Positions 48,651 through 57,635 of a DNA stretch of 64,000 nucleotides are shown here, piece by piece. Each line of letters begins with the position of its first letter. Positions within the stretch are counted from its first letter, which is position 1. This DNA is from Chiua virens (taxonomy: Eukaryota; Basidiomycota; Agaricomycetes; Boletales; Boletaceae). A model generated the notes under the pieces. It worked only from the letters and a program-made list of their open reading frames with translations, did not search any database and was not told the origin of the DNA. The position numbers and the translations under genes are program-made. The DNA lies in NCBI GenBank assembly GCA_019787685.1, contig JAHNUO010000001.1, positions 1,798,001 through 1,862,000 on the forward strand, in the 5' to 3' direction.

Positions 48651-51432
48651 ATGTCAATCATGCCGGCCGTCACATACGAGACTGCTCTCATGTTCTGGAG
48701 GATTATCACCCAGATATTCTTCAGAGAAATCCGACCTCGCGGTGCTTTCAACATCCCTCGTGATGGCCCAGTCATCTTTGTAGGCGCACCGCATCATAAC
48801 CAGGTATGTCGCTCGTTAACTCCTATGTTGACGTATACAGAATATCACTAGTTTCTTGACCCTCTGCTCCTGAGTCTCGAAGTGTTCAGGGAAACCCACC
48901 GACGAGTTGCATTCTTGACAGCAGCGAAAAGCATGAAACGCAAAGCTGTTGGCTTCTTCGCCCGCCAAATGGATAGCAGTGAGCGTTTCGCATCCCTCGA
49001 TGTTATTAGTACGCTCAGTCTTTGCAAAGTACCTGTAGCTCGGGCGGCAGATGAAGCAAAATCCGGAACCGGCCTCGTGGCTTTGTCACCGAACGATCCG
49101 TGTCTGGTCATTGGGGAAGGAACACGTTTCAAGTCCGAGTTTACTCCAAAAATGCAAATCACGTTGTCCAAGTCCGTCAATTCAGTAACGGCCGAGGTCG
49201 TCGAAGTCGTCTCAGACACGGAACTCCGCATTAAGAAGGAGTTCGGAGGGGAGACAGGAAAGGGAACTGCACGCATCAGAGAAAAGTTGGCTGAAGCCAA
49301 GGCCAAAGGAAAGAATGGACTGGCCTTCAAGACACTGCCATTCATCGATCAACAAGAAATGTATCATGGTGTCTACAAGAGATTGAAAGAAGGAGGTTGT
49401 ATCGGAATATTTCCTGAAGGTCTGTCACAGCGATTGATCGCATTATTCTGTACGACTGATGTGAATTTAGGTGGAAGTCACGATCGCACCGATTTGCTTC
49501 CCCTCAAGGCTGGCGTATCCATCATGGCCCTCGGAGCAATGGCCAGTGACCCAACCGTGAAAGTCAAGATTGTACCAGTTGGCCTTTCTTATTTCCATGC
49601 CCATCGCTTCCGTTCTCGTGCTGTCGTTGAGTTTGGAGTTGCGCAGGATGTACCAGCGGAGTTGGTCGAAATGTTCAAAGAGGGTGGTGCACGGAAACGT
49701 GAGGCAGTCGCCAAGTTCCTCGATTTAATCTACGATGGTCTCAAGACTGTGACTATCAGAGCTCCTGACTATGACACACTCATGGTACGATTGTCCACTC
49801 CCCGTTTACACTTCCTGTCAAAACACATGTCTTGCAGCTTATACAAGCCGTTCGGCGGCTTTACAAAACACCTGGGCAACATCTCACGTTGGGTCAAGTT
49901 GTCGACCTCAACCGACGTTTCCTCGAAGGCTATACCCATTTCAAGGATGAGCCACGGGTTCAAAAGCTCAGGAGTGACGTGCTGAAGTACAATCGCTTGT
50001 TACGTGACCTTGGTCTTCGCGATCACCAGGTATGTTCCGTCTGCATTCGCTCTCGAGCAACATTCAGTGTATAAAACCCAGGTGCCACGCGCCAAGAAGG
50101 CCAGCTGGAAAACTCTTGGTCTCCTTCTCTACCGCCTTACTTTATTGTTGTTCTGGACTATACTGGCGTTGCCTGGTACGATTTTGAACGGCCCGATGTT
50201 CATTATTGCTTCTATTATCTCGAAAAAGAAAGCGAAAGGTGAGCAAAGCGCTCCGAGACTAGACTCGTGCTCATATTAATGGCTACAGAGGCGCTTGCTG
50301 CTTCAGTCGTCAAAGTAGCCGGCCGGGACGTTCTCGCCACTTGGAAAATCTTAATCTCCCTCGGTGTTGCCCCCGTGCTGTACACGCTCTATGCAATCCT
50401 AGCAACAGTTTTCGCTGTGAAGGCGCATGTTTCGTGGTGGCTACAACTGTGCACGCCGTTCCTTGTCATTTGCGCCCTTCCTTTCATGAACTATGCTGCC
50501 CTCAAATTTGGCGAAGCTGGAATGGACGTCTTTAAGTGAGCAAGATCCGTAAGGCATAGGATGAGCCTGCCGTTGAATTGCTTGATAGATCCCTCCGACC
50601 TCTTGTTGTTGCCCTCATTCCTGGACAGCAACGAGACCTTGACAAGTTGAAGGCCAAGAGGTTACGTCTTTCAAATGAAGTGGCAGACGTGATCAACGAA
50701 TTCGGTCCCAAGCTATGGGATGATTTCGACCAGGTAATTTTCAACTTTGTGCGGTAGCGCTTGGCTCCTCATTGGTGACAGTTCCGCATCTTGGTACCAG
50801 CGAGCGCTCCCCCGTCCACCGACACAGGTGTTTGGCGACGCAAGAGCAGCGTGGGACAAGTGGATGCGCAAGGAAATCTACTTATCCATCCCATGGTAAG
50901 TCAGCTCACCTTTTGACTTGGGCGGTGAATTAAATGCTCGTGTTGTTGATAGACGTGGCTTGACGAACGCCTCTTTGGCTGGAGTAGGACCGCTACACGA
51001 GGGACCAGTGCATGGGGAGGGAATACACCGAGTCATGAACTCAGCAGACCAGGAACACCCGGGCTCGATGAGTCCGATGAGGAGGATCATGGGGACTACG
51101 ATCATGTGATCGGATACCTTCCTGCATATGAAGCCGCATCCCGAATCAAGCCTCGTAGTCGTCAAGGCTCCTATGCTGACCTCAAGCGGCTCCGCATGAT
51201 GACCACCGCCCAGACTACTTCGTCCAATGGCTCGTCTGGCATACAAGTGTCAGATAGCCAGACCCTGCACATGCGTCACCGACAGCGCAGAGAGAGTCTT
51301 TCAGATCTTGTACCTGTCGAACGCATAGCATCCGTTGACAAGCAAGAGACGTTCCCGAATGCAACGGCAGGGCTGAACGAGGAGATCGTAGACACAATTG
51401 CACTTGAAACATTCTATCACAGTTATGTATGA
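48651..51432 (+). CDS. Glycerol-3-phosphate / dihydroxyacetone-phosphate O-acyltransferase (Sct1/Gpt2 type)
   Basis: ATG 48651 gives MSIMPAVTYETALMFWRIIT. The acyltransferase motif I is APHHNQFLDP (HX4D), completed across an intron. Later motifs are GCIGIFPEGGSHDRTDLLPL and KIVPVGLSYFHAHRFRSRAV. Membrane segments follow: KTLGLLLYRLTLLLFWTILA, LPGTILNGPMFIIASII, ISLGVAPVLYTLYAILATVF and LQLCTPFLVICALPFMNYAA. The C-terminus is a long cytosolic tail rich in Ser/Arg (RHRQRRESLSDLVPVERI), typical of Sct1/Gpt2 phosphoregulation. This enzyme makes lysophosphatidic acid in the ER, the first step of glycerolipid synthesis. About eight exons; no frame damage is seen. Stop at 51430-51432. Confidence 0.92.
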
Positions 51433-52424: not shown

Positions 52425-54273
52425 TTAAAGAACAAAGTCCCTTGCTGCCGTGAGTACCTCTACGCCCGTTTCAGTTATGCTAAGCATTGTCGACCGGTAA
52501 GTAGCGGGGGTGGCGCCAACAGAATAGTCACGTACAGCAAGGTTTCCTCAAACTGCGCGCTCTTTTTGCCATCAACGGTCGTTGCAGTCCATGAGTCATC
52601 CCAGTGTTGCGTTTCCCATTTGGTACCTAAATTGATCATCTGTGCGATACTAGCGCGTCAGTGACTCACAATCGCCCCCACGTACAGCCACTCACCGGTT
52701 CGATGGTGAAACACTGATGTAGTCTATGGGTCAACCAGGACCAACTTTGAGGGGAATTGGCAGGGTATCTCACCATTCCAGGTTTCATAGTCCCGACTGC
52801 TTTGTTTTTGGCGTAATGAGGAATATTGGGCGCGGTGTGGAACAAATCATTGACACCGTGTCCAGTATAAGTGCGGACCACCGCGCAGTCGTTGGTTCTT
52901 GCAATCGGCTCACTATACCATGTCAGAGGTCGGAAAACATCAACGGAAAAAAAAAAACCGACATGGCTTTCCCAATATCACGGAACAGCGCCCCTGGTTT
53001 GCATACCCTTATCGCCGCATCCAAACACTCGCGCGTCGTTCGAATCAGTTTCGCAGAATCTTCATCAATTGTGCCGACGGGGTATGTAGCATTGAGATCG
53101 CTGTGGAAACCTAAGATACAATGATCGAACGTCATGAAACCACAGAACCGAAATAAAATACCTTGATAAAAAAGCGAGACATCTGTGAAACCAAGTGAGC
53201 AAGCCAACAATTATGGAAATTGGGTAGATCAACCAAGATTAATGATATCCCCTTCCCTCAATTTACGTTGGTCAGGAATACCGTGGCAGATGACTTCGTT
53301 AACAGATCTTGAATTACGTTGGGATTAGTCTTTGAAGCATGCAAGGGATTGCGTACGTGCAAACAGATTTTGGAAAGTTCCGATAACCAAGTGGAGATGG
53401 GTATGCGTTCCGATCAACGGTAGCTTGATGAACGATTGCATCAATTTCCTCCGTCGTAATTCCCGGGCGCACGTGGGATGCAGCAAGGTCAAGTACCTCC
53501 CGACCCAACTGATAAAAGGGACGGGTGGGATGATGAGAACGGGTAGAATCAAACGGTGGGCTCGAGTTGTGATAGTCATGGCCGAAGAAAAATAAAATGA
53601 CCGGGCACTTACACGACTCGCAGTTCGCATTTTCTCAATTTCATCTGCACTGAGGATACGCGGTGGATGTCCTGCTGTGCGCATTTCGGAGATGGGGACG
53701 CCTAAGCGAAGATGTAATCAATGCTGATTCCACACAGAGCAGACTTACCATCTCCGCGTTCGGCATAGTCTGGTCGTGGTATGTGATCAGGAACTGGACG
53801 CTTCGGTGACAGCGGATACACGGGTCGCAGGGTACCGGAGTAAGCATAGTTAGGGAATGGATTGAATGTGCCATCTAGAGAGGGCTATATGTAAACTCAT
53901 CAATCGAACGTTGGGAGGCGGAGTTCACCTTGAACTGGGGCACGTGCCAGCTCGTGAATGATTTTATGGGTTTTCTGAAGGATTTTAGTCAGGAAGGAGT
54001 GGACGCCTGATAAATGGGAAAAGTATACCCCTAAGCGAGGATGAGATACGGATCAACTGTGGGAAGCATCAAATGCGCTCACAATTTGCTTTGAAACATC
54101 CTTGACCGCAGAAGAAGGAACCACGAATGCCTAGCCTAGATCGGGTCGGTGAAAGTAGCCTACTAGTTCTTTACTAGTACGTACTTGTTGCATGTCGGGC
54201 ACTCTAGTTTTGATGGCGGATTTCCTTGAGGACAATTTGTGCTTTGGCACAGTATAACGGGTTGGGAACTCAT
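52425..54273 (-). CDS. map1: Methionine aminopeptidase 1 (type I) with N-terminal zinc finger
   Basis: ATG 54273 gives [14 protein letters not shown]. The zinc finger reads [20 protein letters not shown], then [19 protein letters not shown], where the Trp codon is split over two introns by a 2-nt exon (54029-54030). A linker ([20 protein letters not shown]) precedes the catalytic part: [36 protein letters not shown] and [19 protein letters not shown]. The metal ligands follow: Asp in DVSLFYQG, Asp in [16 protein letters not shown], His in [19 protein letters not shown], Glu in FTIEP and Glu in QFEETLL. The end is [17 protein letters not shown], stop 52425-52427. Cytosolic, it removes initiator Met at the ribosome. 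The catalytic residues are all present. Confidence 0.92.
54029..54030 (-). other. Predicted 2-nt microexon (GG) in the MAP1 zinc finger
   Basis: On the minus strand the exon ending GCA AAT T (last base 54083) is followed by a 52-nt intron (54082-54031, gtgagc to cgcttag). The two bases GG come next, then a 54-nt intron (54028-53975, gtatac to ccttcag with a ctgac-taa branch site), then AAA ACC CAT. Joined, T|GG|AAA gives Trp-Lys-Thr-His-Lys, the conserved Trp of the MAP1 zinc finger (FKxxWxxHK). Without GG the frame is lost. Confidence 0.7.
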
Positions 54274-56255: not shown

Positions 56256-57635
56256 ATGCAGCACAAGGAACAGTCCGAGTTTGACATATGGGCTACATAC
56301 CAGTCCTTTCTCGCAAACAAAGAGGTTCGTCATCCCATCAAGTTATCCCCTTGTCTTAATACCATCCTTCTAGTTCTCTACCCCGCTTGCCGCGATCTTG
56401 ACCCTCACCGAACTCGTGGAGAGATCCGATGGTATCCTCTCATCGATCCGACTCACTATGACATAGATAACCCTTCTCCTCAGCCGGTACCATGTTCGAG
56501 CTCGTCAAAGCCCTCAACGACGGCGCTAGAGTCTTGAGTCAGCGTTCACCCAACCCCATCAGTCTCAATGCCGGCTGCGAGCTCTTCATCGCCTTCGTCA
56601 CCCTCTCCCCTCATGATTCCGACGTGAGTCATTCCGATCCGAACGCGCATCGCCCACATCACCATGTATCCTCCAAAGAGTTTCTCCGATCTCAAACGAG
56701 AGCTTGTAAAGCAAGGCCAAAAATACGCCACAGAAGCCCTTACCTATCGCGAAAAAATAGCTGATCTAGCCCTCGGATTCATCAAGGATGATTCAATCGT
56801 GAGGCTGTCCGCGTGTTTCACCACCTCCATTCCACTTACCCCATCCACAAGATCCTCACCCATTCTTATTCGAGGGTCGTCATGAAAACCCTCCTCCGTG
56901 CACACAAGAAGAAGCGCATTTCAGTCTATGTCACAGAAGCAAGACCTCGTGGCCTTGGGTTAGTTCTTCCCATCATCTCGGCCCTGAATTCTCCATGTTA
57001 TGTACTCATTCCTCGCCTCAGTCTCAGAACCTATGATGAACTAACCGCAGCCGGAATTCCTTGCACTGTCGTACTCGACTCAGCTGTATCATACGTCATG
57101 GATAAAGTCAATTTCGTTCTAGTTGGTTCGGAAGCCGTGGTGGAGAGTGGTGGTTTGATTAATGCTGTTGGCAGCAATCAAATAGCCATCATCGCGAAAG
57201 CTGCCAATATTCCATTTTACGCCCTCGCAGAGAGGTTCGTTCCGTGATTCTCGCTATGGCTCGTGTTAACGCCACGTTATTTGTCCCCTAAAGCTACAAG
57301 TTTCACCGTCTATTTCCGCTATCACAGTACGATCTTCCAACCCATAATCCCAACATCCTTGCTTTCCCTCTGCCGTCTCCTTCTACAACCAGCTCATCAA
57401 CCACAACGACCGACGAATGTAAAGCATCATCTGAAGAGCCAAGGACGTTGACGCAGGTGCAGATCGCGTGCCATCCGGATGTGGATTACACAAGGTGATA
57501 ATCAAACCCTCCACTGCGTGTCGTTTTTTTTTAATCTCACGCAGGCCTGATCTCATTACACTTGTCTTCTCTGACGTCGGTAGTCTTACCCCTGAAGGAG
57601 TCAGCCAGTACCTTGTCGGGATGTTTGCGGGATGA
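56256..57635 (+). CDS. gcn3: Translation initiation factor eIF2B subunit alpha (GCN3)
   Basis: ATG 56256 gives MQHKEQSEFDIWATYQSFLA. Introns separate FSTPLAAILTLTELVERSDA, GTMFELVKALNDGARVLSQR, SFSDLKRELVKQGQKYATEA, LTYREKIADLALGFIKDDS, ILTHSYSRVVMKTLLRAHKK and KRISVYVTEARPRGLG. Then come LTAAGIPCTVVLDSAVSYVM, DKVNFVLVGSEAVVESGGLI, NAVGSNQIAIIAKAANIPFY and YKFHRLFPLSQYDLPTHNP. The C-terminus is PDLITLVFSDVGSLTPEGVS, ending YLVGMFAG. It is the regulatory alpha subunit of the eIF2B exchange factor, which senses phosphorylated eIF2 under amino-acid starvation. An insert (STTSSSTTTTDECKASSEEP) before the last block is longer than in yeast. Intact; stop 57633-57635. Confidence 0.92.

Follow-up and report, generated by a model that had tools for sequence, protein, structure and literature searches.

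The MAP1 gene of Chiua virens

The window analysed here is a stretch of 64,000 nucleotides from Chiua virens (assembly GCA_019787685.1, contig JAHNUO010000001.1, positions 1,798,001 to 1,862,000 of the forward strand; genome of 48.3 Mb in 136 contigs), and all coordinates below refer to it. It carries on the minus strand the coding region of MAP1, the gene for methionine aminopeptidase 1, for which hand splicing gave 14 exons and 13 introns. The resulting frame encodes 371 amino acids with no internal stop, which bears out the original prediction that the reading frame continues intact on both sides of a dinucleotide, GG, placed between two introns. The product was matched by the Pfam profiles PF00557 (M24 peptidase, 168.1 bits) and PF15801 (zf-C6H2, 66.5 bits), and so joins the zf-C6H2 finger to the M24 peptidase domain as is characteristic of MetAP1, the type 1 eukaryotic methionine aminopeptidase. 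The PDB MetAP1 chains 8bqd and 4iu6 align to residues 6–366 and 8–368 of the MAP1 query, respectively. Among the matches listed, the closest relatives are proteins of Tylopilus felleus (89%) and Imleria badia (88%), both full length; Tylopilus belongs to the Boletales.

Twelve of the introns measure 47–60 nt and one measures 104 nt, giving 733 nt of intron in total, and two further small exons of 21 and 18 nt are present besides GG. The longest intron, intron 6 (53509–53612, minus strand), has about twice the length of the other twelve. It was inspected by eye as a possible second case of a hidden exon and set aside: since just 3 of the 132 annotated-genome models described below have indels there, it looks like one long intron with no second hidden exon. 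A DNA search of the genome, with the best candidates scored, returned the MAP1 locus alone and no second copy, and a zf-C6H2 profile search, likewise with the best candidates scored, gave one place, below cut-off. Two neighbouring open reading frames lie on the plus strand: that at 48882–49985 matches an acyltransferase (PF01553), and that at 56813–57247 matches a protein of the initiation factor 2B family (PF01008).

A dinucleotide that would complete the Trp codon of the zinc finger

The features that bear on the junction are as follows.

52425..54273, minus strand: coding region of MAP1, hand-spliced, 14 exons, 13 introns, 371 amino acids
54083..54135, minus strand: exon 2, 53 nt, 3′ end ...AAAGCAAATT, its final T being the first base of the Trp codon
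54031..54082, minus strand: intron 2, 52 nt, GTGAGC...GCTTAG
54052..54056, minus strand: branch-like TTGAT of intron 2, matching the consensus at a distance of 22 nt from the end of the intron, which is not evidence of use
54029..54030, minus strand: candidate exon 3, the 2-nt exon GG, completing TGG (Trp48)
53975..54028, minus strand: intron 3, 54 nt, GTATAC...CTTCAG
54007..54008, minus strand: AG of the alternative acceptor TTTATCAG, used by an in-frame 76-nt one-intron path without Trp, 6.8 bits
53988..53992, minus strand: branch-like CTGAC of intron 3, matching the consensus at a distance of 14 nt from the end of the intron
53929..53974, minus strand: exon 4, 46 nt, beginning AAAACCCATAAA, in which AAA is Lys49

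As had been predicted, the 108-nt gap between exons 2 and 4 consists of two introns with GT and AG ends, 52 and 54 nt long, around GG. Joining T, GG and AAA ACC CAT AAA gives W K T H K, and among the paths tested the GG path alone restores the motif CFKANWKTHK. When GG is skipped, exon 2 runs into exon 4 with an immediate TAA stop, so exon skipping was rejected; retention of intron 2 leads to a stop after 4 codons, and retention of intron 3 leaves the frame open and adds 18 residues. Two of the features expected of an ultra-short constitutive microexon (1–3 nt) are found at GG: a complete GT-AG intron of normal size lies on either side of it, and its inclusion is needed for the conserved reading frame.

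With both introns held to at least 35 nt, GG is the sole microexon of at most 40 nt in the real interval that keeps the frame and contains no stop, and two more appear when the intron minimum is lowered to 20 nt. When the 108-nt interval was put through 20,000 dinucleotide shuffles, 0.155% of them contained AGGGGT with an intron of at least 45 nt on each side, and 5.1% contained any in-frame microexon of up to 11 nt under the same intron minimum; given these frequencies, the interval by itself is suggestive of a microexon and not decisive.

Splice sites were scored with a matrix built from the 11 other MAP1 introns, a small training set. Intron 2 has a donor of 6.2 bits and an acceptor of 7.6 bits. 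The acceptor of intron 3 scores 6.3 bits; the donor of this intron, GGG|GTATAC, is weak, with a score of 1.5 bits that 44% of all GT in the window reach. A weaker donor still is that of MAP1 intron 8 (-1.6 bits, leave-one-out).

The same codon in related proteins

Three protein searches, with the best 120 matches taken from each, yielded 170 distinct clusters at 90% identity, in which some species occur more than once. These comprise 132 models from annotated genomes, 37 jgi or lgn contig proteins and one eukprot entry, which was left out. The CFK motif is present in 28 of the 37 jgi or lgn proteins listed and absent in 9, and all 28 motif-bearing ones read C[FY]KxxWxxHK with no insertion. In 11 of the 28, the contig has less spare sequence than the 733 nt of introns in MAP1 (9 and 17 nt in two cases), and with too little spare length for these introns the 11 contigs must come from spliced RNA; we infer the same origin for all 28, firmly for these 11 only. 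The 132 annotated-genome models listed divide into 46 that are intact, 74 that are wrong at the Trp codon and 12 without the CFK motif, so that 74 of the 120 motif-bearing models fail at this one codon, in line with the expectation that gene finders would miss an exon of this size. The ratio of intact to wrong is therefore 28:0 for jgi or lgn proteins vs 46:74 for annotated genomes (Fisher p = 3e-10), and the first search alone gave 24:0 vs 42:53. In the third search the score came from the catalytic part of the protein only, leaving the zinc finger without effect on the ranking; it listed 24 intact, 53 wrong and 12 motif-less annotated-genome models beside 21 intact and 9 motif-less jgi or lgn proteins. 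The intact annotated-genome models (46 of 120) do not reveal the structure of their own genes. Taken with the arrangement in the window, this pattern (28 of 28 intact vs 74 of 120 wrong) supports the proposal that a 2-nt GG microexon splits the Trp codon, and none of the results named beforehand as refuting that proposal turned up in the DNA of the window or in the proteins compared.

At the Trp junctions, an indel no more than 3 residues away was found in 60 of 125 annotated-genome models and in 1 of 28 jgi or lgn proteins (P0144, which lacks the CFK motif), and as a control, nine other MAP1 junctions have indels in at most 11 of 132 annotated-genome models each. Junctions 4 and 5 are uninformative, since length varies there in both groups (indels in 120 of 127 annotated and 30 of 31 jgi or lgn proteins at junction 4, and in 110 of 130 and 32 of 36 at junction 5).

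The original prediction also held that the MetAP1 finger demands Trp at this position. Trp stands there in all 28 motif-bearing jgi or lgn proteins; across eukaryotes the requirement is not absolute, for of the two PDB alignments inspected, 4iu6 (presumably human MetAP1) has Trp and 8bqd, whose molecule name is MetAP1 and which we take to be the yeast enzyme, has Tyr.

How the annotated models go wrong

Of the 74 wrong models, 66 have Cys, Ser, Tyr or Phe at the Trp position; 6 have Trp there but continue with wrong sequence, one has Leu and one has Gln. The codons of Cys, Tyr and Phe begin with T, and some of those of Ser do, which is what an exon 2 ending in T would lead one to expect. In the 49 models with Cys, the next residue is Glu in 23 and Lys in 12; these pairs match a putative read-through of T|GTGAG and T|GTAAG (TGT GAG and TGT AAG), although in 5 of the 12 Cys-Lys models exon 4 may be the source of the Lys. 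Of the 66 models with a T-type residue, 45 resume at K.HK and 21 do not. Gln precedes K.HK in 17 of the 45, and in three more QK.HK models outside the 66, matching what read-through of CAG|AAA would give. As judged from their protein sequence, these 45 models seem to join a phase-1 donor to a phase-0 acceptor with 2 nt missing, which suggests that the exon is conserved in the DNA of relatives.

Some models fail differently. The Boletus reticuloceps model P0024 (W-V...Q-K-T-H-K, 17 extra residues) reads as though the second intron alone had been retained. The Cyclocybe and Rhizoctonia models (P0064 and P0166) have W-V-S, matching GG|GTRAGT, which by itself is no proof of the first intron. Six wrong models with Cys or Ser and no insertion were not decoded. 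The inserted sequences of the wrong models vary in length and sequence and are not conserved. Among the matches listed, Suillus, Armillaria, Pisolithus, Trametes, Irpex and Lentinula each have some intact and some wrong models; such a mix within one genus speaks for annotation error rather than real change, and some of these proteins may be paralogs.

Several Agaricomycetes have two MAP1 proteins among the matches listed, namely Stereum hirsutum, Armillaria luteobubalina, A. gallica and Plicaturopsis crispa (P0035 and P0130; P0016 and P0039; P0019 and P0053; P0027 and P0086). In Stereum one of the two models is intact, and the other fails at the Trp codon.

Other readings of the interval

A single 76-nt intron running from T|GTGAGC to TTTATCAG|GCG (inner TATCAG) would dispense with the microexon and replace W by 11 residues, a net gain of 10. 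This path is in frame and open, its acceptor scores 6.8 bits, and similar-looking insertions occur in many wrong models of relatives. Those insertions, however, differ from model to model and are seen in none of the 28 motif-bearing jgi or lgn proteins; the path loses Trp and lengthens the finger, lowering the zf-C6H2 score to 46.5 bits (first 126 residues of the 76-nt isoform) vs 66.5 bits (full protein with GG), and the nearest upstream branch-like motif lies 46 nt from the acceptor, a poor distance. We therefore rejected the 76-nt path, which we consider very unlikely. Slightly less credible again is a gene with two forms, in which inclusion of GG would give the enzyme, and retention of intron 3 (18 additional residues) or the 76-nt path would give a second, regulated isoform: both alternative products are open in the window and the B. 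reticuloceps model reads like retention of the second intron alone, but such a form occurs in none of the 28 motif-bearing jgi or lgn proteins and the sequences inserted in wrong models are not conserved. That the split codon is only mimicked, by a local error in sequence or assembly or by decay of the gene, is hardly credible, for although one assembly was examined and the DNA search there gave this locus alone, the remainder of the 371-residue frame is intact and annotated models of many other genomes are wrong at the same codon.

A proposed route of splicing

We consider it very probable that MAP1 carries a constitutive 2-nt exon, GG, between two short GT-AG introns (52 and 54 nt) that are recognised across themselves and most likely removed in sequence, yielding TGG AAA. 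Recognition across the intron is the generally accepted mode for introns of this length, so the lower size limit set by exon definition, which the original prediction had brought up, is probably not relevant to GG. Introns 2 and 3 would each be recognised by intron definition. The few bases bound by the factors on the first acceptor would also be covered by U1 on the second donor, and because of this overlap removal of the two introns one after the other appears most likely. Once joined, T, GG and AAA would read TGG AAA and encode the Trp and Lys residues of the zinc finger of MetAP1. A transcript that skipped GG would carry TAA at this point, could not give the enzyme and would presumably decay, so that the TAA might act as a built-in fail-safe, possibly via transcript decay. 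Lys follows Trp in 69 of the 74 intact proteins, and skipping would consequently create TAA wherever the junctions are the same. As judged from sequence, GG is most likely a real, constitutive and old exon, presumably used in the living fungus.

Recursive splicing at an AG|GG|GT site used twice had been suggested as the mechanism, and finds no support as such: the primary transcript already contains the second donor, and GG would remain in the mRNA, so that successive removal of two ordinary introns of about 50 nt suffices. A recursive splice site proper, at which a donor is regenerated and no exon sequence is left, was rejected since two bases stay here and are needed for the Trp codon. A stwintron, in which an inner intron interrupts the signal of an outer one and nothing is kept, was rejected as well, since each intron has its own ends and removal of all 108 nt leads to a stop.

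Breadth and age

Both signatures of the split codon, a T-type residue followed by K.HK, occur in models from at least six orders of Agaricomycetes, for which one example each is given.

Pisolithus marmoratus, Boletales: both signatures
Galerina marginata, Agaricales: both signatures
Amylostereum chailletii, Russulales: both signatures
Fomitopsis schrenkii, Polyporales: both signatures
Sanghuangporus baumii, Hymenochaetales: both signatures
Sistotremastrum suecicum, Sistotremastrales: both signatures

Gloeophyllum trabeum (Gloeophyllales) has the T-type residue with no resumption at K.HK, Botryobasidium (Cantharellales) has an ambiguous Cys with no insertion, and the Exidia and Auricularia models are intact at the Trp codon. 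Dacrymycetes and other outgroup classes are absent among the annotated-genome matches listed. The incompatible junctions suggest that the GG exon is at least as old as the common ancestor of the orders that have them. Two jgi or lgn proteins without the CFK motif, P0144 (87% to an Exidia protein) and P0151, start differently and have Gly directly before exon 4. They read as if ...AG|GG ran into exon 4, which could reflect intron 2 retained with intron 3 gone, or single-intron lineages.

Discussion

Ultra-short exons as such are already known; the novelty lies in the gene concerned, in a size of 2 nt for a fungal exon and in how widely the exon appears to occur. No report of the MAP1 GG exon was recognised, by title and start of abstract, among the matches listed from the open-licence literature. 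The closest parallel in the literature drawn on here is CYP621A of Fusarium, in which a 1-nt exon, G, is proven, with confirmation by SRA reads, and is called the first 1-nt exon of a fungal gene (PMC12940212). As in MAP1, an ultra-short fungal exon (AG|G|GT) lies between two introns and completes a codon in a conserved motif, and it too was found via incompatible exon phases (PMC12940212). The two differ in that the CYP621A exon has 1 nt, belongs to an ascomycete P450 gene and is confirmed by reads, whereas GG of MAP1 has 2 nt, belongs to a housekeeping gene of Agaricomycetes, is known from the DNA and apparently occurs in several orders. The same paper cites exons of 2–5 bp for Arabidopsis, Drosophila and human (PMC12940212).

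In plants, 1-nt exons of APC11 and VPS55 are described as proven by RT-PCR and RNA-seq, and intron-less copies exist (PMC4674806; PMC8831610). They resemble the proposed GG exon as constitutive ultra-short exons of conserved genes, are conserved across a large clade, as GG apparently is, and are likewise absent from reference annotations; they differ from it in being plant exons verified by both methods (PMC4674806; PMC8831610). The P450 genes of Phanerochaete chrysosporium offer an agaricomycete with many short introns and tiny exons, the shortest being 6 bp as against 2 nt in MAP1 (PMC1184071), and a regulated microexon of 20 nt is reported for Trichoderma Xlr2 (PMC11121469). Stwintrons and recursive splice sites share with the route proposed for MAP1 the successive removal of two introns from one place but keep no exon sequence between them, unlike GG, which would be kept in the mRNA.

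A broader history can be offered only tentatively, and we think it rather doubtful as a whole. For much of the evolution of the Agaricomycetes, GG might have persisted as a constitutive exon in this housekeeping gene. Since skipping would join T to a Lys codon AAR and create TAA, its inclusion by two introns that cannot be spliced simultaneously might set the dose of MetAP1; the exon might owe its origin to the gain of a second intron only 2 nt away from an existing one, and the hint from P0144 and P0151 raises the possibility that a single-intron state survives in some lineages.

For annotation, the finding amounts to a correction, with a damaged zinc finger in 74 of the 120 motif-bearing annotated-genome models sampled here. 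Misannotation may itself serve as a detector, in that failure at the same codon in the models of many species can point to exons too small to predict. If the proposed reading is true, MAP1 would provide a natural test of how the spliceosome handles two introns 2 nt apart, and the Agaricomycetes would have a fungal 2-nt exon in a housekeeping gene, apparently conserved over orders.
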